The translations under genes were made by a program, and so were the position numbers. A stretch of 64,000 nt of DNA from NCBI GenBank assembly GCA_026005015.1, contig BPKG01000001.1, positions 1,554,501 to 1,618,500 of the forward strand. The letters run 5' to 3'. The stretch comes from Burkholderiales bacterium. GTDB taxonomy: Bacteria; Pseudomonadota; Gammaproteobacteria; Burkholderiales; UBA6910. Under the pieces are notes generated by a model, which saw only the letters and a list, made by a program, of their open reading frames with translations, was not told the DNA's origin and ran no database searches. Positions 3,595 to 50,550 of the stretch are shown here, one piece after another (position 1 is the stretch's first letter; each line of letters starts with the position of its first letter).

Positions 3595-5706
3595 ATGGCG
3601 GAAGCGGAACTCCTGTTCAAGGAACTCTCCGGATATCTCAAGCCGGAGGACGTGGTTCAGCTCGAATCCGCCTACCACTTCAGCAAGGCCGCCCATCACG
3701 GCCAGTTCAGAAAGAGCGGCGACCCGTACATCTCCCATCCCCTCGCGGTGACCCAGATCCTGGCGCAGATGCGCTTGGACGCCCAGGCGCTCACCGCGGC
3801 GCTGCTGCACGACGTGATGGAGGACACCAAGGTCACCAAGGCCGAGATCGCTTCCATCTTCGGCAACCCGGTGGCCGAGCTGGTAGACGGGGTCTCCAAG
3901 CTCGACCGCATCGAGTTCCAGAGCGCGGAGGACGCCCAGGCGGAGAACTTCCGCAAGATGCTACTCGCCGTCTCCCGGGACGTGCGCGTCATCCTCATCA
4001 AGCTGGCCGACCGGCTGCACAACATGCGCACCCTGAAGTCGGTGGAGCCCGAAAAGCGCCGCCGCATCGCCCGGGAAACCCTGGAGATCTACGCCCCCAT
4101 CGCCAACCGCCTGGGGCTCAACGCCATCTACCAGGAGCTGCAGGATCTCGCCTTCCGCCACCTCTATCCCAATCGCTACAAAGTGCTCGCCAAGGCGGTG
4201 AAGGCGGCCCGGGGCAACCGGCGCGAAGTGGTGCACAAGATCCAGGCCACCCTCCAGCACAAGCTCAAGGAGGCCGGCATCGATGCCGAGGTGCACGGGC
4301 GGGAAAAGCACGTCTACAGCATCTACAAGAAGATGCGGGAGAAGTCCCTCTCCTTCGGCCAGGTGCTGGACATCCTCGGCCTTCGGATCATCGTCAAGGA
4401 CATCCCCTCCTGCTACCTCGCCCTGGGCGTGCTGCACGGGCTCTACAAGCCCATTCCCGGAAAATTCAAGGACTATATCGCCATCCCCAAGGCGAACGGT
4501 TACCAGTCGCTGCACACCACGGTCTTCAGCCCCCTGGGCACCCCCATCGAGGTGCAGATCCGCACCCGCACCATGCACCGCATCGCCGAGAGCGGCGTGG
4601 CCTCCCACTGGCTGTACAAGACCTCGGACGCCGAGTTCAAGGAGCTGCACCAGAAGACCCACCAGTGGCTGCAAAGCCTGCTGGAATCCCTCTCCGAGTC
4701 CCGGGACTCGGTGGAATTCCTCGAGCACCTGAAGGTGGACCTCTTCCCGGACGAGGTGTACGTGTTCACCCCCAAGGGCAAGATCCTGGCGCTGCCGCGG
4801 GGGGCCACGGCGGTGGATTTCGCCTACGCCGTACACACCGACATCGGCAACCGCTGCGTCGCGGCCAAGATCAACTACGAGCTGATGCCCCTCAGGACCG
4901 AGCTCAAGAACGGGGACCAGGTGGAGATCATCACCGCGAGCCACGCCAAGCCCAATCCCTCCTGGCTCAACTACGTAGTGACCAGCAAAGCCCGTTTCGA
5001 GATCCGCCACTTCCTGCGCACCATGCAGTACGAGGAGTCGGCCGAGCTGGGCGAGCGGCTGCTGGCCCAGGCCGTGACTGCCCTGGGCGGCAAGCTGGAG
5101 GACATTAGCGACCAGCAGTGGGACAAGCTGGTACGGGAGACCAGCGCCAAGTCCAGGCAGGAGATCCTGGCCGACATCGGCCTCGGCAAGCGGCTGGCGG
5201 TGGTGGTAGCGCGCATGCTGGTCGCTCCCGGCGGCGAGGCCCAGCGGGGGGAGACGCCTTCCGCTGGCGCCATCACGCTCCTCGGCACCGAGGGCATGGC
5301 GGTGCAATACGCCCGCTGCTGCCGGCCCATTCCCGGCGACCCGATCATCGGCCTGATCAAGAAGGGCCAGGGCCTGGTCATCCACACCCACGACTGCCCG
5401 CTGATCGGCAAGACCAAGGGCGACCCGGAGAAGTGGCTGGACGTGCAATGGGACCCGGGCATCACCCGCTCCTTCGGCGTCACCATCCGGCTGGTGGTGG
5501 CCAATCAGCGCGGGGTGCTGGCCAAGGTGGCGGCGGAGATCGCCGAAGCGGGCAGCAACATCGAGAACGTGAGCATGGACGGGGAAGGAGCCTACACCAC
5601 CATGAACTTCACCCTGCAGGTGAAAAACCGCATCCACCTGGCCAGGGTGATGCGCAGCCTGCGCCGCATCCCCGAAGTGGCCCGCATCACCCGGGTCAAA
5701 GGCTAA
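3595..5706 (+). CDS. spoT: Bifunctional (p)ppGpp synthetase/hydrolase SpoT/RelA
   Basis: A 703-residue Rel-family enzyme that makes and breaks the stringent-response alarmone (p)ppGpp. Domains run in the usual order: N-terminal HD hydrolase with the intact catalytic motif LLHDVMEDT near residue 70; synthetase with KFKDYIAIPKANGYQSLHT near 290; TGS with PRGATAVDFAYAVHTDIG near 400; a zinc-finger/helical region with CCRPIPGD near 575; and a C-terminal ACT domain. The intact HD motif argues for the bifunctional type rather than RelA. It follows rpoZ as in many Betaproteobacteria. Confidence 0.96.
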   Translation: MAEAELLFKELSGYLKPEDVVQLESAYHFSKAAHHGQFRKSGDPYISHPLAVTQILAQMRLDAQALTAALLHDVMEDTKVTKAEIASIFGNPVAELVDGVSKLDRIEFQSAEDAQAENFRKMLLAVSRDVRVILIKLADRLHNMRTLKSVEPEKRRRIARETLEIYAPIANRLGLNAIYQELQDLAFRHLYPNRYKVLAKAVKAARGNRREVVHKIQATLQHKLKEAGIDAEVHGREKHVYSIYKKMREKSLSFGQVLDILGLRIIVKDIPSCYLALGVLHGLYKPIPGKFKDYIAIPKANGYQSLHTTVFSPLGTPIEVQIRTRTMHRIAESGVASHWLYKTSDAEFKELHQKTHQWLQSLLESLSESRDSVEFLEHLKVDLFPDEVYVFTPKGKILALPRGATAVDFAYAVHTDIGNRCVAAKINYELMPLRTELKNGDQVEIITASHAKPNPSWLNYVVTSKARFEIRHFLRTMQYEESAELGERLLAQAVTALGGKLEDISDQQWDKLVRETSAKSRQEILADIGLGKRLAVVVARMLVAPGGEAQRGETPSAGAITLLGTEGMAVQYARCCRPIPGDPIIGLIKKGQGLVIHTHDCPLIGKTKGDPEKWLDVQWDPGITRSFGVTIRLVVANQRGVLAKVAAEIAEAGSNIENVSMDGEGAYTTMNFTLQVKNRIHLARVMRSLRRIPEVARITRVKG

Positions 5707-5829
5707 TCCCCTCCTCTGCCACTTCCCACCTGACTTAGGTCAATGACGGCCGCCCAACGTGCGGGTATTGTCGCCGGCGCTCGCGGGGTGGCTTGCGCCC
5801 CGGGGCAATCCCCATTCGAGGAGGAGACC

Positions 5830-6111
5830 ATGCAAAAACCGTTGATTGCGATGATGTTCGCGGGCGCCCTGAGCCTTGCCGGATGCGCTGGCTTCGTGCC
5901 CCAGGATAAACCCGCGCTTTCCGTGGAGGCCCAGACGGCCCTGCTCCAGGCGGAGCAGGACATCAAGTTCGCCGAAAGCCGCAAGGGGGACACGACCGCC
6001 GCCCGCAAGTCCTACCAGCAGGCCCAGGAAGCCGCGGCCAAGGGAGACGAGGCGGCGGCCATCAAGCACGCCTGGGAGGCCAGCCAGGCGGCCGTCAAGT
6101 CGGTCAAATAG
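5830..6111 (+). CDS. Small predicted outer-membrane lipoprotein
   Basis: A 94-residue protein with a lipoprotein signal peptide (MQKPLIAMMFAGALSLAGC, lipobox LAGC with Cys 19). The remainder is a charged, alanine-rich helical segment. A strong Shine-Dalgarno GAGGAGG sits just before the ATG. No family is recognised with confidence; short lipoproteins with heptad-like alanine, glutamine and lysine patterns often associate with the cell wall. It converges on another lipoprotein gene 15 bases downstream. Confidence 0.8.
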   Translation: MQKPLIAMMFAGALSLAGCAGFVPQDKPALSVEAQTALLQAEQDIKFAESRKGDTTAARKSYQQAQEAAAKGDEAAAIKHAWEASQAAVKSVK

Positions 6112-6126
6112 GCCGTCGGCCCCGCT

Positions 6127-6408
6127 TCAGCGCGCCTCCCGCTCGATCCGCTCGCGCATGCCGCGCTCGCGCTCTTCCAGGGCGGGCGCGGCTTCTTTCG
6201 CCCGCTCCAGCGCCCGGCGCTCTTCGCGGAAAATCTTCCGCTGGACGTCCTCGGACTCCATCCGGGGGACCGGGGGACCGCTGGGGGGCCGGGGCTTGTC
6301 CTCGCACCCGGCAAGCGCCGCGGCGAGCACGAGCATCGCCCCCAGCGCCCGGCGCGTGAGGGCGCTCCTCGGGCCGGCTTCGGTGCGGTGCGTTTCCATG
6401 ATTTTCAT
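6127..6408 (-). CDS. Small predicted lipoprotein, highly charged
   Basis: A 93-residue protein with a long basic n-region, a hydrophobic stretch and the lipobox LAGC, after which mature Cys-Glu-Asp would begin. The mature part is proline-rich and then almost entirely charged (Glu/Arg/Lys), suggesting a helix or coiled coil. A second possible start is METH, three codons in. It is convergent with the preceding lipoprotein. Function unknown. Confidence 0.7.
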   Translation of the reverse strand: MKIMETHRTEAGPRSALTRRALGAMLVLAAALAGCEDKPRPPSGPPVPRMESEDVQRKIFREERRALERAKEAAPALEERERGMRERIEREAR

Positions 6409-6609
6409 TATAGAGGCCCGGACCCGGCGTCCCGACCCGCGCCGCGCCGGCTATAATACGCGATCACGAACCGGCCCGCGGGGCTCAGGTGCGAGCCGCG
6501 CGGCCTTTTCCCCGATGGTACCCCAACCCGACGGCTCCGGCGGTCCCGGGGCGGCCCCTGCGACCCGAACCTCGCCCCGTTCGCAGCCCGATCAAGCGAG
6601 AGAGGAACC

Positions 6610-7665
6610 ATGCCCAAATACAAGATCGCCACGATCCCCGGCGACGGCATCGGCAAGGAAGTGGTGCCGGAAGGCATCCGCGTGCTGGAGGCCGCCGGGC
6701 GCAAGTTCGGCATCGAGTTCCAGTGGGATCACTTCCCCTGGAGCTGTGAGTACTACACCCGTCACGGGCGCATGATGCCCGAGGACGGACTGGAGACGAT
6801 CCGCCGCCACGACGCCATCTATCTCGGCGCGGTAGGCTTTCCCGGCGTTCCCGACCACGTGTCCCTGTGGGGCCTGCTGATCCCGATCCGCCGGGGCTTC
6901 CAGCAGTACGTGAACCTGCGCCCGGTGCGGCTCTTGCCCGGCGTGCCCTGCCCCTTGAAGGACAAGAAGCCCGGCGACATCGATTTCTGGGTGGTGCGAG
7001 AAAACAACGAAGGCGAATATTCCTCGATCGGGGGCCGCATCTACGAGGGCACCGAGCACGAGGTCGTGGTGCAACAGAGCACTTTCACCCGCCGGGGAGT
7101 GGACCGCATCCTGCGCTATGCCTTCGAGCTCGCCCGCCGCCGGCCAGCGAAGCACGTGACTTCCGCCACCAAGTCCAACGGCATCTCCATCACCATGCCC
7201 TACTGGGACGAGCGCTTCAAGGCCATGGCGGCCCAGTACCCGGACGTGCGCGCCGACCAGTATCACATCGACATCCTGAGCGCCCACTTCGTGCTGCACC
7301 CGGAGTGGTTCGACGTGGTGGTGGGCTCCAACCTCTTCGGCGACATCCTGTCCGACCTGGGGCCCGCGGTGACCGGCACCATCGGCATCGCGCCGTCGGC
7401 GAACCTCAACCCCGAGCGGGAATTCCCTTCCTGCTTCGAGCCGGTGCACGGCTCCGCCCCGGACATCTACGGCAAGAACATCGCCAACCCCATCGGCCAG
7501 ATCTGGTCCGGTGCCATGATGCTGGAACACCTGGGCCACGCGGAAGCGGCACAAGCGATCGAGCGCGCCATCGAAACGGTGGTCGCGGAAGGACCGCGCA
7601 CCCGCGACATGGGAGGCACCGCCTCCACCGCCGAGGTGGGCCAGGCCATCGCTTCCGCGCTTTGA
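6610..7665 (+). CDS. dmlA: D-malate / tartrate dehydrogenase (decarboxylating)
   Basis: A 351-residue NAD-dependent beta-hydroxyacid oxidative decarboxylase. It opens with IPGDGIGKEVVPEG and carries YVNLRPVRL, VVRENNEGEYSS near 120, SATKSNGI near 180, SNLFGDILSDLGP near 245 and GSAPDIYGKNIANP near 285. The CEYYTRHGRMMP and YVNLRPVRLLPGVPCPL segments match the DmlA/TtuC branch rather than LeuB isopropylmalate dehydrogenase. D-malate and tartrate are the likely substrates, but related acids cannot be excluded. It stands alone between the lipoproteins and a two-component operon, and a hairpin terminator follows. Confidence 0.88.
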   Translation: MPKYKIATIPGDGIGKEVVPEGIRVLEAAGRKFGIEFQWDHFPWSCEYYTRHGRMMPEDGLETIRRHDAIYLGAVGFPGVPDHVSLWGLLIPIRRGFQQYVNLRPVRLLPGVPCPLKDKKPGDIDFWVVRENNEGEYSSIGGRIYEGTEHEVVVQQSTFTRRGVDRILRYAFELARRRPAKHVTSATKSNGISITMPYWDERFKAMAAQYPDVRADQYHIDILSAHFVLHPEWFDVVVGSNLFGDILSDLGPAVTGTIGIAPSANLNPEREFPSCFEPVHGSAPDIYGKNIANPIGQIWSGAMMLEHLGHAEAAQAIERAIETVVAEGPRTRDMGGTASTAEVGQAIASAL

Positions 7666-7715
7666 AAAGCCGCGCCCTCCCGTTGGCGCTGAACGGCGGC
7701 GCTGCTACCATTTGA

Positions 7716-7748
7716 GCGCCCTTCCGCTTCCGAGCGGGAGGGCGTTCT
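7716..7748 (+). terminator. Rho-independent terminator after dmlA
   Basis: An 11-bp stem with one G-T wobble (CGCCCTTCCGC / GCGGGAGGGCG), a 6-base loop and a short T-rich tail. It lies in the gap between dmlA and the histidine kinase start at 7768, so it probably insulates the two units. Confidence 0.7.
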
Positions 7749-7767
7749 TGCCCCTATATCCTTGCCC

Positions 7768-9240
7768 ATGCGGGTCCGCTACCCCAAGTCGTTCCTCGCC
7801 CTGCTGTTCGTCGGGCTCACCCTGGTCGCGCTGCCCCTCATCTTCGCCCTGGTCAACAACGCGGTGGCGATCGACCGCCTCACCAACCAGGGACAGAAGG
7901 CGGTCTACGAGGCGACGCGCCTCATCCAAGAGAGCCGGGCGCTCTCCGAGTCGGTGACCGGCATGGAGCGGGTCGCGCGCCAGTACCTGGTGCTGCGCGA
8001 CCGGTCGCTGCTCGACGGCTATGGGAACTTGCGGGAAGGATTCCTGAGAAGCGCTCGCCTGCTCCAGCATTCCCGGCTGGCCGAGGGGCAGCGGGCGTTG
8101 CTCGCCGAGATGGTCGAGCGGGAGGAAGCCATTCACCGCCAGCTCGCGGCGCTGTCGCCGGCCAACCCGGAAGCAGCGGCCAAGGACCAGGAAGCGCAGC
8201 AGCTCCAATGGATCGCCGTGGCGTTCGAATCCCTGTCCCAGGGGGCGCAGAAGCTGGTGATCCACAGCAACGAGGTGATCGACCGGGAAGTGGAAACGCT
8301 GCGCCAGATGTCGCAGAAGGCCTACGAGATCATGATGCTACAGATGCTGGCGCTGGTGCCGGTGGCGATCTTCCTGGTGGTGGGCTTTCCCCTGCTCATC
8401 GTGCCCCCCATCCGGCAGCTCGCCCAGGGCATACGCACCCTGGGCGAGGGACGGTTCGATCTGGAAATCCGGGTCGACGGCCCTCAAGATCTGCGCTACC
8501 TGGGCCAGCAGCTCGACTGGCTGCGGCTGCGGCTGATGGAGCTGGAGGAACAGAAGAAAAAGTTCCTGAGCCACGTGTCCCACGAGCTGAAGACCCCGCT
8601 CACGGCGCTGCGGGAGGGCTCCGACCTGCTGGCGGATGAAGTGGTGGGCAAGCTCAATCCCGAACAGAAGGAGATCGCCCGCATCCTGCGCCAGAGCAGC
8701 CTCCAACTCGGCCGGCTGATCGAGGACCTGCTCGCCTACAGCGCGTCCCAGTTCCGGAAGGGAAAGCTCAACATCAAACAGGTTAAAATGAGCGACGTGG
8801 TAAAGAGCGTCGTCAACGATCATAAACTGGCGCTGCGCGCCCGCTCGATCCAACTGGAACTCGACTGCGAGGCCGTGTACGTGTCCGGCGACGAGGAGAA
8901 GCTGCGGACCGTGGTGGACAACCTGGTTTCCAACGCCATCAAGTTCACGCCCGAGGGCGGCCGCGTGCGCGTCGAACTGCGCCGCGACGACGACGCGGCG
9001 GTACTGGACGTGATCGACGACGGGCCCGGCATCCCGCCCGAGGAGCGGGAGCGGGTGTTCGCGCCGTTTTTCCAGGGCCGCGCCCAGCAATCGGCGGCGG
9101 TCAAGGGATCGGGGCTGGGGCTGTCCATCGTCAAGGAGCACGTGCTGGCCCATGGCGGACGGGTGGAAGTGGTGGACCGCGCCGCGCCGGGGGCTCATTT
9201 CCGGGTCACCTTGCCCCTCAACCCATGGGTCGGCGCGTGA
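7768..9240 (+). CDS. glrK: Sensor histidine kinase GlrK (QseE-like)
   Basis: A 490-residue inner-membrane sensor kinase. It has a TM segment near residues 12-32, a periplasmic helical sensor region to about 190, a second TM near 195-217, a HAMP linker, the phosphoacceptor box FLSHVSHELKTPLTAL near 272, an N box NLVSNAIKFTPEG, and ATP-lid motifs DDGPGIPPEERERVF and GSGLGLSIVKEH. The ATG at 7768 is used; an in-frame TTG lies two codons upstream. The next two genes encode a lipoprotein and a sigma-54 activator, which is the glrK-qseG-glrR order and supports the assignment. Confidence 0.9.
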   Translation: MRVRYPKSFLALLFVGLTLVALPLIFALVNNAVAIDRLTNQGQKAVYEATRLIQESRALSESVTGMERVARQYLVLRDRSLLDGYGNLREGFLRSARLLQHSRLAEGQRALLAEMVEREEAIHRQLAALSPANPEAAAKDQEAQQLQWIAVAFESLSQGAQKLVIHSNEVIDREVETLRQMSQKAYEIMMLQMLALVPVAIFLVVGFPLLIVPPIRQLAQGIRTLGEGRFDLEIRVDGPQDLRYLGQQLDWLRLRLMELEEQKKKFLSHVSHELKTPLTALREGSDLLADEVVGKLNPEQKEIARILRQSSLQLGRLIEDLLAYSASQFRKGKLNIKQVKMSDVVKSVVNDHKLALRARSIQLELDCEAVYVSGDEEKLRTVVDNLVSNAIKFTPEGGRVRVELRRDDDAAVLDVIDDGPGIPPEERERVFAPFFQGRAQQSAAVKGSGLGLSIVKEHVLAHGGRVEVVDRAAPGAHFRVTLPLNPWVGA

Positions 9241-9792
9241 AGCCGGGGGTCGCGGCTTTTCCTGTTGGCGGCGGCGCTCGCTCTTGTCGCAGGCTGCGCC
9301 GTGCCTCCGCTCGGCGAGGGCGAGCGGCCGGAGCCGGTCATCCCCGGCCTCACCCGCCCCGTCAGCGACGTGGAGGCGTTGCTCGACTACTACGAGCGCT
9401 TGACGAAACTCCAGGGACAGGAGCTGGCCAAAGAGTACGAGCGGGTCCGGCAAACCTACGCCAGGGCCCGCAGCGACTATAACCGGCTCCAGCTCGCGCT
9501 CCACGGCGCGCTGCCCGGAGCGGGCCCGGAAGATCAGATCCAGAGCCTGAACCTCCTGGAGCCCCTGGTGAAGTCGAACGACCAGAGAAACGGCGACCTG
9601 CGGCGGCTCGCCCTGCTGCTGCACGGCCTGATCCAGGAGCACCGGCGGCTCGCGGAAGGCTTGAACGCGGCCAGCCAGAAGGCCAAGGAAGAACAAAAGC
9701 GCGCCGAGGACCTGCAGCAGAAGCTCGACGCCATCAAGAGCATCGAAAAGAACCTGATCGAGCGCGAACAGCAGATGCGCAAGCAGCGATGA
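9237..9792 (+). CDS. qseG: QseG/YfhG-like outer-membrane lipoprotein, start region frameshifted
   Basis: Lies between glrK and glrR, where enterobacteria encode the lipoprotein QseG that helps GlrK signalling. Read from GTG 9237, overlapping the glrK stop, the frame breaks at a five-G run (9245-9249). With four G's it would begin MKPGSRLFLLAAALALVAGC, a textbook lipoprotein signal with a positive n-region, and give 184 residues. As written, translation must start at TTG 9265 with a shortened, uncharged signal. The mature part is a long helical, coiled-coil-like protein of Glu, Lys, Gln and Leu. A sequencing indel is the simplest explanation. Confidence 0.72.
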
Positions 9793-11153
9793 CCAGCATT
9801 CCCCAGCGCATCCTGGTGGTGGACGACGATCCCGGCATCCTGCGGCTGCTCACCCTGCGGCTGCAGTCGGCAGGCTACGCCGTCACCTCGGTGGAGAGCG
9901 CCGAAAAAGCCCTCTCGGCCATCGAGGCGGCCCGGCCCAATCTGGTGATCACCGACCTGCGCATGGGCGGCATGGACGGCATGGCCCTGTTCGACGCCTT
10001 GCACCGGGCGCACCCGACCCTGCCGGTGATCATTCTCACCGCCCACGGCACCATTCCCGACGCGGTGGCGGCCACCAAGCGCGGTGTGTTCGGCTACCTC
10101 ACCAAGCCGTTCGAGGCCCAAGAGCTGCTGGAACAGGTGGCGAAAGCGCTCAGCGTCTCCGGCGGTGTTTCCGCCGGTACCTCCGCCCTGGGCGATCGGG
10201 AGTGGCGCAGCGAAATCATCACCTGCAGCCCTCTGATGGAGGACCTGCTGGCCCAGGCCCGACTGGTGGCGGCGGGAGACGCCAGCGTGTTCATCCAGGG
10301 CGAGTCCGGCAGCGGCAAGGAACTGCTCGCCCGGGCCATCCACAAGGCCAGCGCCCGGGCCCAGGCGCCCTTCGTCGCGGTCAACTGCGGCGCGATTCCC
10401 GAACAGCTCCTGGAATCCGAGCTGTTCGGCCATGTGAAGGGCGCCTTCACCGGCGCCACCCGCGACCACAGCGGACTGTTCCAGGCGGCCCACCAGGGCA
10501 CCCTGTTCCTGGACGAGATCGGCGACATGCCCCTCACCCTGCAGGTGAAGCTGCTGCGGGTGCTGGAAGACAAGCAGGTGCGCCCGGTGGGGTCCACCCG
10601 CAGCATCCCGGTGGACGTGCGCATCATTTCCGCCACCCATCGGGATCTGGAGGCCCTCAAGAACACGGGCAACTTCCGCCAGGACCTGTACTACCGGCTG
10701 AACGTGGTCTCCCTCACGGTCCCTTCGCTCGCGCAACGGCGCGAAGACATCCCGCTCCTTGCCACCTACTTCCTGCACCGCCTGGCGAACAAGTACCGCA
10801 AGGCGGTGGCCGCTTTCGCCCCCGAGGCGATGGAGCTCCTGGCCCAGGCCTCCTGGCCCGGCAACGTGCGGCAATTGCAGAACGTGGTGGAGCAGACGGT
10901 GGCCCTCGCCACCAGCCCCATCATCCCCGCCACCCTGGTGCAGAACGCCATTCAGCACGAGCAGGACGAAATCACCTCTTTCGAGGTGGCGCGCACCCGT
11001 TTCGAGCGGGAATACCTGGCGCGGCTGCTCAAGATCACCGGCGGCAACGTGAGCCAGGCGGCCAAGCTGGCGAAGCGCAACCGCACGGAGTTCTACAAGC
11101 TGTTGCAACGCCTGCAGCTCGACCCGGCCCTGTTCAAGCGGCCCAGGGACTGA
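9789..11153 (+). CDS. glrR: Sigma-54-dependent response regulator GlrR
   Basis: A 454-residue NtrC-family activator. The receiver domain (1-120) has acidic DDD near 12, phosphoacceptor Asp in VITDLRMGG near 56 and Lys in TKPFE. The AAA+ domain has GESGSGKELLARAI near 174, the sigma-54 contact loop GAFTGAT near 222, LFLDEIGDM and RQDLYYRLN. The C-terminal helix-turn-helix includes GGNVSQAAKLAKRNRTEFYKL. It overlaps the preceding gene by ATGA. A site matching the known GlrR operator pattern and a sigma-54 promoter lie just downstream. Confidence 0.93.
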   Translation: MTSIPQRILVVDDDPGILRLLTLRLQSAGYAVTSVESAEKALSAIEAARPNLVITDLRMGGMDGMALFDALHRAHPTLPVIILTAHGTIPDAVAATKRGVFGYLTKPFEAQELLEQVAKALSVSGGVSAGTSALGDREWRSEIITCSPLMEDLLAQARLVAAGDASVFIQGESGSGKELLARAIHKASARAQAPFVAVNCGAIPEQLLESELFGHVKGAFTGATRDHSGLFQAAHQGTLFLDEIGDMPLTLQVKLLRVLEDKQVRPVGSTRSIPVDVRIISATHRDLEALKNTGNFRQDLYYRLNVVSLTVPSLAQRREDIPLLATYFLHRLANKYRKAVAAFAPEAMELLAQASWPGNVRQLQNVVEQTVALATSPIIPATLVQNAIQHEQDEITSFEVARTRFEREYLARLLKITGGNVSQAAKLAKRNRTEFYKLLQRLQLDPALFKRPRD

Positions 11154-11269
11154 GCCGTCCACCCCGTCCGGCAATTCCGGGAAGGACTCTTTGCGTCCGG
11201 CCCGTCGTTGGCCGGCGACTTTAAAAACATGCTCTAAGTCAGCGTGTTACAAGAGATTTGCGGTTGCGC

Positions 11270-11287
11270 TGTCGCTGATCGACGACA
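11270..11287 (+). promoter_or_regulatory. Predicted GlrR binding site (TGTC-N10-GACA)
   Basis: The sequence TGTC, ten bases, then GACA fits the inverted repeat described for GlrR at the enterobacterial glmY/glmZ promoters. It lies about 110 bases before the transcription start expected from the sigma-54 promoter at 11365-11380, a normal enhancer distance, and directly after glrR itself. Only one perfect copy was found here. Confidence 0.65.
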
Positions 11288-11364
11288 GTTCTCCGCTTTG
11301 GTCCCGCCAGAAAATTCCGCCCTTTTAAGACTAACTTAATGATTGTTAAAAAAATGCTCCCCCT

Positions 11365-11380
11365 TGGCACGCCCCTTGCC
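11365..11380 (+). promoter_or_regulatory. Sigma-54 (-24/-12) promoter
   Basis: TGGCACG-CCCC-TTGCC closely matches the RpoN consensus TGGCACG-N4-TTGCW, with GG and GC exactly ten bases apart. It would drive the CsbD-like gene at 11441 and probably the glycine-zipper gene behind it. An AT-rich tract resembling an IHF site (about 11331-11355) lies between it and the GlrR-type site, as is common at such promoters. Confidence 0.82.
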
Positions 11381-11440
11381 ATAGCTTGGTGGCTGGAAGC
11401 CTGCGAGGCGCCAGCAATTGGGATCAGGGAGCACCAAAAA

Positions 11441-11662
11441 ATGGCCATCGACGTCCTAAATAGCAATTGGAAAGAAATCCGCGCCCATGCCAAGCAGTGG
11501 TGGGGCGAGCTGACCGAAGACGACCTGGATGAGGTGGAAGGCCGGCGCGATCGGCTGATCGATCTGCTGCAGCAGCGTTACGGCCATACCCGCGAGGAAG
11601 CGGAGGTGGACGTGGAACGCTTCCTGGTGCGGGCCAGCAGCTTCATTCGACCCAATCACTGA
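11441..11662 (+). CDS. CsbD-like stress protein
   Basis: A 73-residue acidic protein with the CsbD fold signature: NWKEIRAHAKQWWGELT near the start, then DDLDEVEGRRDRLIDLLQQR and YGHTREEAEVDVE. The family is induced by general stress in many bacteria and its biochemical role is unknown. The internal ATG at 11441 was chosen over an upstream in-frame start because it gives the standard CsbD N-terminus and follows a GGGAGC ribosome site. It is the first gene after the sigma-54 promoter, so GlrR probably controls it. Confidence 0.85.
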   Translation: MAIDVLNSNWKEIRAHAKQWWGELTEDDLDEVEGRRDRLIDLLQQRYGHTREEAEVDVERFLVRASSFIRPNH

Positions 11663-11714
11663 AAAGTCGCGGCAAGGCACGGCTTCCGGAGGCAAGAGGG
11701 GCAATGGGGGCGAC

Positions 11715-12290
11715 ATGGTGAACAACAACAGCAGCCTGCTTTACCCATTGATGATCATCGCGGCGATGGCGGTGATCCTGTTCAGCGTCGTGGGCATCGC
11801 CACCATGACGGGTCACCTGCCCGCGGCCTTCTCGGAAGTCCAGGAAGGGCAGGCGACGAGCAGGACGAACGCGGCGGCGAGGCCGGACGCGCCGAAGCCG
11901 GCCGCTGCCGCCAGGACGGCGGCGGCGCCTGCGCCCGTCGCGAGGGCGGCCCCCTGCCCGGACTGCGGCGTGGTCGAGTCCGTCACGGCTTCCGAGGTCA
12001 AGGGACAGCCGTCCGGGGTGGGCATGGTGGCCGGCGGTGTCACCGGCGGGGTGATCGGTAACCAGATCGGCGGCGGCAGCGGCCGTACCATCGCCACTAT
12101 CGTGGGCGCGGCGGGAGGCGCTTACGTGGGCAACGAAATCGAGAAAAACGCGAAGAAAACCACAGTTTACCGGATCACGGTGCGCATGGACGACGGTACC
12201 ACCCGCACCTTGACTCAAGAGACGCCGCCTGGATTCGGTATCGGCGAAAAGGTGCGCATCGTGGATGGGCGCCTGGTGGCAAGAGGTTGA
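11715..12290 (+). CDS. Glycine-zipper 2TM membrane protein (SlyB/17-kDa antigen-like)
   Basis: A 191-residue protein with an N-terminal membrane anchor (residues 10-31), an Ala/Pro-rich linker, and a glycine-zipper stretch (GMVAGGVTGGVIGNQIGGG, then VGAAGGAYVGNEIEK) near 97-140. A small C-terminal beta domain contains YRITVRMDDGT. Such proteins sit in the envelope and often respond to envelope stress. It lies 52 bases after the CsbD-like gene in the same direction, so both may be read from the sigma-54 promoter. A clear terminator follows. Confidence 0.83.
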   Translation: MVNNNSSLLYPLMIIAAMAVILFSVVGIATMTGHLPAAFSEVQEGQATSRTNAAARPDAPKPAAAARTAAAPAPVARAAPCPDCGVVESVTASEVKGQPSGVGMVAGGVTGGVIGNQIGGGSGRTIATIVGAAGGAYVGNEIEKNAKKTTVYRITVRMDDGTTRTLTQETPPGFGIGEKVRIVDGRLVARG

Positions 12291-12392
12291 GGCTACTTAG
12301 GTAAAAGGCACCTGCAGGGAACTCAAGGCAAGCGAAAGGAATCCCAGCACGCAGAAGCGATTCTTCGGCGAAGACAAGGAACCCCCAAGTTG

Positions 12393-12426
12393 GCCCGCTA
12401 TTTTCTCCTCCGGCGGGCTTTTTTTT
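12393..12426 (+). terminator. Rho-independent terminator
   Basis: Stem GCCCGC / GCGGGC with a 14-base loop, followed directly by eight T's. It closes the CsbD-like/glycine-zipper unit. Confidence 0.8.
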
Positions 12427-12478
12427 GGAGCGTCAATGGACGCCCGCGCGGTGCGCGGCTGCTAACCCGGAGTCACCC

Positions 12479-12727
12479 ATGAAAGCCTTGCGCTTTTTCA
12501 TTCTCGTGAACGTCGCCCTGCTCGCCGCCGGGTGCGCCGCGACCCAGCCGAGTCGTCCCAATGTGAACTTGTCCGGCTATCCGCCGGCCTTCCAGGAAGG
12601 TTATGCCGACGGCTGCCACAGCGCCCGAACCCTGATCGGCGTGCGCAAGGACGAGGCCCGTTTCAAGAACGACAGCCTCTACGCCCAGGGCTGGCGGGAC
12701 GGCTACGACATCTGCAGTAAGCGCTGA
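12479..12727 (+). CDS. Small predicted lipoprotein
   Basis: An 82-residue protein with a signal peptide MKALRFFILVNVALLAAGC and lipobox AAGC. The mature part has a motif-like YPPAFQEGYADGCHSAR and ends AQGWRDGYDICSKR, with two cysteines (in GCHS and DICS) that could form a disulfide. Paired EGYADGC and WRDGYDIC segments suggest an internal repeat. Function unknown. It begins after a strong terminator and so has its own promoter. Confidence 0.75.
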   Translation: MKALRFFILVNVALLAAGCAATQPSRPNVNLSGYPPAFQEGYADGCHSARTLIGVRKDEARFKNDSLYAQGWRDGYDICSKR

Positions 12728-12798
12728 TTTTCACCCAGGAGTCTTTCCACCACCGGGACCGGCCAGGCCGTACAATCTCGGCCCTGGGGGTAAAAACC

Positions 12799-13410
12799 GT
12801 GAACGAGGGGCTCTACGCCATCGGGCTGTGCGCGGTGGCAGTCAACGCGGCCACCGGCGTGCTGGAAGCCGGAAGGAAGCCCATCGACCTTTTCGGCATG
12901 GTGGTGGTGGCGCTCGCCGCGGCCCTGGGCGGAGGCACGCTCCGGGACCTGCTGCTGGATCGCCCGGTGTTCTGGATCGCCGATGTCTCATACCTGTGGA
13001 CCGCCGTGGCCGCCGGGCTCGCCACGTTCGTCCTGGTGAGGCGCCTGCGGCTGCCCCTCAACCTGTTCCTCATTCCCGACGCGCTGGGGCTCGCCTTGTT
13101 CACCGTGCTCGGCACTCAGATCGCCCTGGCCATGGAGATGGACGGGTTCGTGGCCAGCTTGATGGGGGTCATCACCGGTGTCTTCGGCGGGGTGCTGCGG
13201 GACGTCCTGTGCAACGAGGTGCCGTTGGTGTTCGGCGGCGAGCTTTACGCGACGGCGGCCTGGGCCGGCGCTCTGCTGCTGGTGGCCTTGAACCACTTCG
13301 GCATAGACGCCAACGCTTCCGCGGCCCTGGCCACCGCAGCCGTTCTGGCCCTGCGCCTGGCGGCGATCCGCTGGCGCATCCGGCTGCCCATCTTCGTCGC
13401 CAGGCGCTAG
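12799..13410 (+). CDS. Trimeric intracellular cation channel family protein (UPF0126, YicG/YadS-like)
   Basis: A 203-residue integral membrane protein with about seven hydrophobic segments forming two homologous halves. The family hallmark GGGTLRDLLL near residue 50 recurs as GGVLRDVLCNEVPL near 135, each containing the conserved Gly-Gly/Arg-Asp. Bacterial relatives form trimeric channels; glycine transport has been suggested for some. The GTG start at 12799 is used. Standalone gene; convergent with the DUF456 gene. Confidence 0.85.
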   Translation: MNEGLYAIGLCAVAVNAATGVLEAGRKPIDLFGMVVVALAAALGGGTLRDLLLDRPVFWIADVSYLWTAVAAGLATFVLVRRLRLPLNLFLIPDALGLALFTVLGTQIALAMEMDGFVASLMGVITGVFGGVLRDVLCNEVPLVFGGELYATAAWAGALLLVALNHFGIDANASAALATAAVLALRLAAIRWRIRLPIFVARR

Positions 13411-13451
13411 CTGTGACGGTTCGAGGGCCGCTCCACCCTGTGCCGGATCTT

Positions 13452-13931
13452 CTATATCAAGTAAGCGGTCACGAACACGCCCACCATGGTGAACGCCAGG
13501 GCGAGCTTCGCCAGGGTGCCGAGCAGGAGCCCTACCCAGGTTCCGATTCCGGCGCGGGCGGCCCGGCTCCAGTCGCTGCGGGTGAGATATTCGCCGATCA
13601 CCGCGCCGACGAAGGGTCCCAGCAACAGACCGGGCAGGCCGAAGAACACGCCCACCACGGTGCCGACGGCGGCGCCCGCCACCGCCCGGGCGCTCGCGCC
13701 GACCCGCTCCGCCCCCAAGGCGCTCGCCACCAGGTCCACGAGGACCGCCGCCAGGGTGAGTGCCGCCAGGACGGCCACGGTGACGACGCTGACATGCTGA
13801 AAATCGTCCATCCAGGCGGCGAGCAGCAGGGCGGCAAAGACCAGGGGAACGCCCGGCAGCCCGGGGAGCACGGTGCCGAGAAGGCCTGCCACCACCAGGG
13901 CGATCACCAGAAGCCAGAGCCAGACGTTCAC
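13452..13931 (-). CDS. DUF456 family membrane protein
   Basis: A 159-residue very hydrophobic protein with four or five membrane segments. The N-terminal GLLGTVLPGLPGVPLVF is the DUF456 signature, and the glycine-rich GLPGLLLGPFVGAVIGEY near 100 is the second conserved block. Function unknown. It lies downstream of the Sel1-repeat gene on the same strand. Confidence 0.85.
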   Translation of the reverse strand: MNVWLWLLVIALVVAGLLGTVLPGLPGVPLVFAALLLAAWMDDFQHVSVVTVAVLAALTLAAVLVDLVASALGAERVGASARAVAGAAVGTVVGVFFGLPGLLLGPFVGAVIGEYLTRSDWSRAARAGIGTWVGLLLGTLAKLALAFTMVGVFVTAYLI

Positions 13932-49971: not shown

Positions 49972-50550
49972 TCACGCCTTCGAAAGCAGCTTGAGCGCCT
50001 GCCGGATGCCGTCAGCCACGGAGAGGCTTGCATCAAGCTGCCCCACGGCCCACTGAGCTTCGCGGTCATTATAGCCCAGGGCCAGGAGCGCATTGAGGAT
50101 GTCGCCGCCCGGCGACAGGCCCGCCGCTTCGCCGGCGGCGCCGGCCTCCGCCTTGAGCCGGTCTCTGAGCTCCAGCAGCAGCCGCTCCGCGGTCTTCTTG
50201 CCGATCCCGGGGATCCTGGTCAAGCGCCCGGCGTCCTGGCTCGCCACCGCCTGGTTCAACTCCTGCACCGAAAGGCCGGAGAGAACCGCCAGGGCCGTGC
50301 GCGCGCCGACGCCGGCGATCTTCAGCAGTTGCCGGAAGGTGCGGCGCTCCTGAACGGTCCAGAAGCCGAAGAGCTGGTGGGCGTCCTCCCGCACCACCAG
50401 ATGGGTGAAGAGCGTCACCTGGGCGCCGGTGGCGGGCAGTTGATAGAAGGTGCTCATGGGCACGTCGATCTCGTAGCCCACGCCGTGGGCGTCCACCAGC
50501 ACCATGGGCGGGTGCTTCTCCACCAGGATGCCGCTGATGCGGCCGATCAT
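49972..50550 (-). CDS. ruvA: Holliday junction protein RuvA
   Basis: A 192-residue junction-binding protein. The OB-fold start [15 protein letters not shown] and [21 protein letters not shown] is followed by two helix-hairpin-helix motifs ([17 protein letters not shown] near 78; [19 protein letters not shown] near 110) and a C-terminal RuvB-contact domain ([20 protein letters not shown]). It overlaps ruvC by four bases. A 104-base gap separates it from ruvB. Confidence 0.97.

Follow-up and report, generated by a model that had tools for sequence, protein, structure and literature searches.

We propose that the csbD-like and glycine-zipper genes that follow glrR in this Burkholderiales genome are very probably driven by an IHF-assisted sigma-54 promoter activated by GlrR. 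The same wiring appears to recur behind glrR throughout the order, where its usual recognizable products would be envelope proteins of the glycine-zipper, BON, and MdoH/OpgH types. Work on GlrK/GlrR has centered on its roles as the GlmY switch of enterobacteria and as a host-hormone sensor. The GlrR-sigma-54 system as such is known; the conserved protein-coding envelope output would make this a variant of it, and a protein-coding regulon in betaproteobacteria suggests a role for GlrK/GlrR without GlmY or a host hormone. The evidence is comparative throughout. The parts of the system, their conservation and spacing, the gene context, and a recognition helix identical to that of E. coli GlrR are all visible in the DNA.

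The glrR locus and its predicted promoter

The window, the whole stretch of 64,000 nucleotides that was analyzed, is G000:C1:1554501-1618500, where G000 stands for its own genome. Table 1 lists the features of the locus.

Table 1. Features of the glrR locus (positions within the window)
Feature	Position	Strand	Basis or remark
glrK-like sensor histidine kinase gene	7762..9240	+	First start codon of the listed open reading frame is TTG
Lipoprotein-like gene between kinase gene and glrR, in the place of qseG	9265..9792	+	
glrR, sigma-54-activating response regulator	9789..11153	+	NCBIfam, comparison with E. coli GlrR, recognition helix
Second GlrR operator (predicted, imperfect), CGTCGTTGGCCGGCGACT	11203..11220	+	67 bp upstream of the operator at 11270
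GlrR operator (predicted), TGTCGCTGATCGACGACA	11270..11287	+	Perfect TGTC-N10-GACA, conserved in relatives
IHF-like site, TAACTTAATGATT	11332..11344	+	One mismatch to the IHF consensus YAANNNNTTGATW
Sigma-54 promoter (predicted), TGGCACGCCCCTTGCC	11365..11380	+	11/12 match to the sigma-54 consensus TGGCACGNNNNTTGCW
csbD-like gene	11441..11662	+	Pfam PF05532, 44.5 bits (cut-off 40)
Glycine-zipper 2TM protein gene	11715..12290	+	Pfam PF05433, 41.9 bits (cut-off 24.2)
Likely rho-independent terminator	12393..12426	+	GCCCGC/GCGGGC, 14-base loop, 8 T (by eye)

Judged by its sequence, the regulator is a GlrR, as the initial annotation had called it. Its best NCBIfam model is that of GlrR (NF011695, 625 bits; next model, 427). 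The score stays below the curated cut-off of 763 bits, which none of the 200 genomes from the order and 1 of 14 control genomes reach; the model may be tuned to enterobacteria. The Response_reg and Sigma54_activat domains score above the Pfam cut-offs, and a Fis-type helix-turn-helix is readable in the sequence. Over 450 aligned positions the protein shares 57% identity with E. coli GlrR, and the recognition helix RNRTEFYKLL is the same in both, residue for residue. The own genome has 12 sigma-54 activator loci; a Fis helix is readable in 8 of them, and RNRTEFY is found only in GlrR and in a paralog that we call GlrR-B.

The kinase has HisKA and HATPase_c domains above the Pfam cut-offs, with HAMP below, and is 34% identical to E. 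coli GlrK over 445 aligned positions. The intervening protein carries a cysteine after LALVAG close to its N terminus (by eye) and is 44 to 79% identical to homologs in the family to which the genome belongs. As in the QseE/QseG/QseF system of E. coli, orthologous regulator and kinase genes lie in one block. The gene order also agrees and the middle gene reads as that of a lipoprotein, but its product has no detectable similarity to QseG: the pairwise comparison with the E. coli protein was not significant, and profile comparison gave a probability of 3.5%.

The perfect operator directly after glrR and the near-consensus −24/−12 promoter about 80 bases further on had both been pointed out in the initial annotation. 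Both are present, with a gap of 77 bp between them, GG at 11366-11367, GC at 11378-11379, and 10 nucleotides in between; the two downstream genes were likewise identified correctly. What had been overlooked is the second, imperfect operator. It retains only the GTC-N10-GAC core and its final base is off the dyad, so that it was not counted in our relaxed-operator scan of related loci. The relative from the same genus (G001) also has an operator pair 67 bp apart, and there the counterpart of the imperfect site reads TGTCGTTGACCGGCGACT. By sequence, all the parts of a GlrR-type promoter are in place: copies of the upstream activating sequence (UAS) TGT-N12-ACA, an IHF-like site, and a −24/−12 promoter. 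No sigma-70-type promoter was found in a scan of 11100-12800. The terminator scan of the same interval admitted loops of at most 8 bases, so the hairpin listed in Table 1 was not among its results; this hairpin probably ends the csbD-glycine zipper unit.

We hypothesize that an envelope signal would cause GlrK, possibly with the intervening lipoprotein, to phosphorylate GlrR, dimers of which would bind the two TGTC-N10-GACA-type operators. The AT-rich spacer, presumably with the help of IHF, would then bend and bring the operators to sigma-54 RNA polymerase at the promoter, where ATP hydrolysis would drive promoter opening. The resulting csbD-glycine zipper mRNA would extend from a predicted start at about 11391 to the terminator near 12426.

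Conservation and spacing behind glrR

Neither motif is rare within the window alone. The exact operator pattern occurs twice in the 64 kb (0.55 expected; 10 of 100 shuffles reach 2), and when 2 mismatches are allowed the sigma-54 pattern occurs 9 times, which is chance level (10.35 expected). The pair stands out beyond chance because it is conserved in relatives. The second exact TGTC-N10-GACA of the window (TGTCGCCGCCCGGCGACA, 50100-50117) lies inside a long open frame; no sigma-54 site was found 30 to 160 bp from it, and it is probably a chance match.

In all three relatives from the same family that our search for relatives found (G001, G002, and G003), csbD and the glycine-zipper gene are still preceded by operator and promoter. 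In an alignment of the four regions the operator and the promoter core align throughout, while the spacer is unconserved. For the order as a whole we drew 93 GlrR loci in 87 genomes from a set of 200, taking every row of at least 455 bits (the next row has 409); 81 of the 87 genomes have a single GlrR locus and 6 have two. Within 400 bp behind glrR, 39 of the 93 loci have an exact operator (shuffles, 0.27; maximum, 1); 64 have a sigma-54 site matching at least 10 of 12 positions (shuffles, 2.3; maximum, 6). When the operator was relaxed to YGTC-N10-GACR, with two inner dyad matches required in addition, 57 loci had one within 420 bp. Together with a following sigma-54 site of at least 9/12 in the same interval, the pair is found behind glrR in 55 loci (shuffle mean, 0.13; maximum, 2), although, the loci being related, shuffle counts and p-values here overstate independence. 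The 55 paired loci, the window's own included, represent 54 genomes and 27 of the 36 group-coded families that have GlrR, and the conservation in relatives that the initial annotation had suggested looking for is therefore borne out. By comparison, 50 loci of other sigma-54 activators (38 to 45% identical) yielded 1 operator and no pair. The pair is missing within 420 bp behind glrR in 38 of the 93 loci, 9 of which have an envelope-type gene there.

Genome-wide searches agree with these counts. The strict operator-plus-sigma-54 pattern occurs in 45 of the 200 genomes and, read backwards, in 2; it is present in 36 of the 87 genomes with a listed GlrR versus 9 of the 113 others (p = 2e-8, again among related genomes). 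The matches in those nine include sites like TGTCAAAATGACATGACA, which look like the sites of another regulator, and some matches in GlrR genomes fall within apparent coding regions and may be fortuitous. In another collection of 29 named GlrR genes the pair was found behind 7, a lower rate that may reflect more distant groups. The seven include Chitinimonas and Dechloromonas, whose genomes also belong to the 87, and, beyond these two, Rubrivivax, Janthinobacterium, a member of the Nitrospirota, a member of the Desulfuromonadales, and a gammaproteobacterial genome. Cultured relatives that have the pair include Janthinobacterium sp. TND4EL3 and Duganella radicis. In Ewingella, a Candidatus Arsenophonus, and another member of the Enterobacteriaceae, operators with a sigma-54 site are placed on the kinase side, 2.6 to 3.1 kb before glrR, which is also the arrangement of glmY.

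The spacing of the sites is regular. Among the 55 paired loci, 21 of 22 operator-operator spacings measure 63 to 68 bp; with exact operators only, 15 of 18 do, and the rest are 32, 96, and 97 bp. Operator-promoter gaps cluster at 62 to 66 bp (23 loci), 73 to 77 bp (10), 83 to 84 bp (5), and 94 to 95 bp (4), which accounts for 42 of the 55; the remaining 13 range from 50 to 183 bp. A phase test at 10.5 bp gave a p-value of about 4e-12, which takes no account of relatedness. Of 38 operator-promoter spacers, 25 contain an IHF-like site with no more than one mismatch, compared with 5.65 in shuffles (maximum, 11). Helically phased spacing combined with IHF-like sites is, as far as sequence can tell, the anatomy of looping activation.

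Genes downstream of glrR

Genes of a recognized envelope type lie within about 1.1 kb behind glrR in 51 of the 93 loci (identities checked on samples). Glycine-zipper genes account for 33 of them (7 with BON and 3 with CsbD), BON alone for 12, MdoH/OpgH for 5, and DUF1328 for 1; one counted BON protein (L191) falls just under the Pfam cut-off (26.8 versus 27). The most frequent target type is the glycine-zipper family PF05433, members of which lie no more than 2.5 kb behind 34 of the 93 GlrR genes, and the BON genes of several loci carry EF hands too. Of the 51 envelope-type loci, 42 have the operator-promoter pair, compared with 13 of the 42 loci without a recognized envelope type (Fisher p = 6e-7, for related loci). 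Among the latter 42 loci, 20 have a sigma-54 site. In four of them (L137, L156, L162, and L164) the first protein behind operator and promoter belongs to one family of short proteins (by eye), three of which start with MKRFDT; the sole member searched, from L137, had no Pfam match.

These counts suggest that the core of the output is, order-wide, glycine-zipper and BON genes. The initial annotation, which had named CsbD and glycine zipper as the output, is supported for this locus, but CsbD behind glrR is confined, among the loci compared, to the window's family (G000, G002, and G003; in G001, csbD is present although glrR has been lost from the locus). Between the promoter and csbD of G003 lies an EF-hand/BON gene that is broken by an in-frame stop (L113; by eye), and some other genomes hold an intact EF-hand+BON gene in that place. 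Given this interrupted gene, CsbD may have joined the targets, or replaced BON, in the window's family, and it looks like a late addition to the target set.

MdoH/OpgH functions in periplasmic glucan synthesis. Five loci (L180, L185, L193, L195, and L196) have an MdoH/OpgH-type gene behind glrR and a sigma-54 promoter (L195 was checked), an arrangement that suggests sigma-54 control of osmoregulated glucans. In a GlrR tree (a quick one, without bootstrap and with long outgroup branches), 10 of the 12 BON-only loci fall into one group of 24 rows (support, 87), which also contains all 5 MdoH loci. Outside this group are the BON-only loci L121 and L145 and all loci that combine BON with a glycine zipper. 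A few distant pairs precede genes for small glycine-zipper lipoproteins, at L202 (confirmed by Pfam) and at L204, or, at L107, a BON-like gene; the assignments at L204 and L107 were made by eye.

Alternative activators and outputs, and known GlrR systems

The own genome contains TGTC-N10-GACA in exact form at 28 places, each of which was checked for a sigma-54 site 30 to 160 bp away. Matches of at least 10/12 were found at the window site, at two sites near 91 kb of contig C6 that share a promoter, at a site at 72 kb of the same contig, and at one candidate on contig C2 (L305). Three others (L292, L301, and one in L006) have only a 9/12 match, and the remaining 20 places have none. The whole-genome search that had been suggested for further sites of this kind added the C6 pairs and the C2 candidate. 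At C6:91139-91235, two operators and a sigma-54 site precede a FeeM-type acyltransferase gene, and at C6:72269 one operator and a sigma-54 site precede a bactofilin gene. The gene ahead of the bactofilin gene passes the cut-off of the exosortase-associated acyltransferase model TIGR03694; near the FeeM-type pair, a gene matches an exosortase-dependent surface protein model, below the cut-off only.

Could the pair in the window have another meaning? Since each motif alone is near chance level within the window, a GG/GC motif might have come to lie beside a short palindrome by accident in GC-rich DNA; the order-wide conservation, which already speaks against chance, the spacing, and the controls with other activators leave this idea with practically no credence. 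The promoter could also make a small RNA, with csbD merely downstream, as E. coli GlrR uses a promoter of this type to drive the small RNA GlmY (accessible parts of PMC6075780). Yet csbD begins about 50 nt past the predicted start, with AGGGAG 9 bases ahead of its ATG, and the plus strand of 11100-12800 has no terminator-like site under the scan rules (loops up to 8 bases). Rfam gave no match in 5500-13500, and searches for GlmY (RF00128) and GlmZ (RF00083) that recover the E. coli copies found neither in the own genome. From the position of csbD, the lack of an Rfam match in that interval, and the failure to find GlmY or GlmZ in the genome, we rejected a small-RNA output, which we consider quite improbable. 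PrsR, the sigma-54 regulator of PEP-CTERM genes in the same genome, would be a further conceivable binder of the window site: a PrsR-type gene lies at C6:79473-80800, two more operator-sigma-54 pairs are on the same contig, and one of these adjoins the gene that passes the exosortase-associated acyltransferase cut-off. However, the site published for PrsR has 17 nt and ends in TTTACA (available text of PMC1569441), the interval 11160-11460 contains no TTTACA and no TGTAAA, and the PrsR helix SRPTLYDLM differs from that of GlrR. With site and recognition helix both different, PrsR was rejected as a barely credible binder. The PrsR gene itself (L201) is split over two frames, by a frameshift or a sequencing error.

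The paralog GlrR-B deserves more attention than these, acting alone or jointly with GlrR. It is encoded at C1:723553-724887 (L183), its helix RNRTEFYRLL is nearly identical to that of the window GlrR, and it is followed by a 10/12 sigma-54 site and an EF-hand+BON gene, ahead of which lie two GTCG/CGAC dyads 64 bp apart (by eye). In the quick tree GlrR-B groups with most BON-only and all MdoH/OpgH loci. G001, the only genome of the same genus that we found, lacks glrR between the lipoprotein gene and the operators (L200, G001:C39, about 8,930 to 9,185). The locus keeps the kinase gene, the lipoprotein gene, both operators, the promoter, csbD, and the glycine-zipper gene, together with a short remnant that resembles the start of glrR, and represents either a natural loss of glrR or an assembly error. 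If it is no assembly error, the GlrR-B that G001 retains (62% identical to the window GlrR) may serve the promoter there. On the other hand, glrR itself lies immediately upstream of the site in G000, G002, and G003, neither an operator nor a sigma-54 site was found behind the GlrR-B gene of G001, and the wiring needs no paralog, given the single GlrR locus of most GlrR genomes. The activator could thus be GlrR, GlrR-B, or both; a contribution of GlrR-B to the window promoter is a real but unlikely possibility, and activation by the neighboring GlrR is the reading that we prefer.

Activation by GlrR also ties the locus to its closest known counterpart. Upstream of E. coli glmY we found three TGTC-N10-GACA sites (TGTCTGTAAATCACGACA, TGTCGCTTTCTGGCGACA, and TGTCTCTTTTTAGCGACA), which match the published UAS, TGTN12ACA, through which QseF/GlrR together with IHF activates glmY (accessible parts of PMC6075780). 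The locus resembles glmY in its multiple operators, IHF-like site, and sigma-54 promoter adjoining the regulator genes; it differs in that the promoter lies behind glrR rather than ahead of glrK and in that the predicted output consists of protein genes, not a small RNA. The initial annotation had described the enterobacterial output as small RNAs. This holds for glmY, with its operators, but the available text of PMC6075780 also gives rpoE, transcribed from a sigma-54 promoter, as a protein-coding target of QseF/GlrR in E. coli, so that a view of GlrR as a regulator of small RNAs only is too narrow. Control of rpoE parallels our model in that GlrR/QseF drives a protein-coding envelope-stress gene; unlike the sigma factor encoded by rpoE, the targets predicted here are the envelope proteins themselves. 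A second relative in design is the PrsK/PrsR regulon of PEP-CTERM genes, with an NtrC-type regulator, an upstream site, a −24/−12 promoter, surface-related genes, and a spacer averaging 62.8 nt (accessible parts of PMC1569441 and PMC9850573), but with the different site and recognition helix described above.

In the portions available, one survey records GlrK-GlrR from Nitrospira as well as from beta- and deltaproteobacteria (PMC8895600), and QseF-like activators are listed in another, from 2011 (PMC3162934). A paper on a Bordetella sigma-54 activator states that the regulon of that activator is not known and, in its accessible text, does not name GlrR (PMC11722255); one on Acidithiobacillia lists GlrR orthologs, without GlrR targets in the parts covered (PMC12194929). 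Our literature search found no description of GlrR targets in betaproteobacteria within a coverage that mostly excludes subscription journals, so that absence is unproven.

The proposed different, protein-coding output therefore stands, with the qualification that it is no peculiarity of this genome but extends across the order. A single operator predicts target genes in dozens of species and provides a proposed regulator for uncharacterized small BON, glycine-zipper, CsbD, and DUF1328 genes. The regulon also offers envelope or osmotic stress as a testable class of signals for GlrK, whose natural stimulus is unsettled. Evenly poised, in our judgment, is the further idea that direct control of envelope proteins (BON or EF-hand+BON, glycine zipper, and MdoH/OpgH) encoded beside glrR is the older and wider role of GlrR. 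Enterobacterial GlmY control would then be a derived rewiring that kept the operators, the IHF site, and the sigma-54 promoter; the change would be limited to which gene is transcribed and where it lies.
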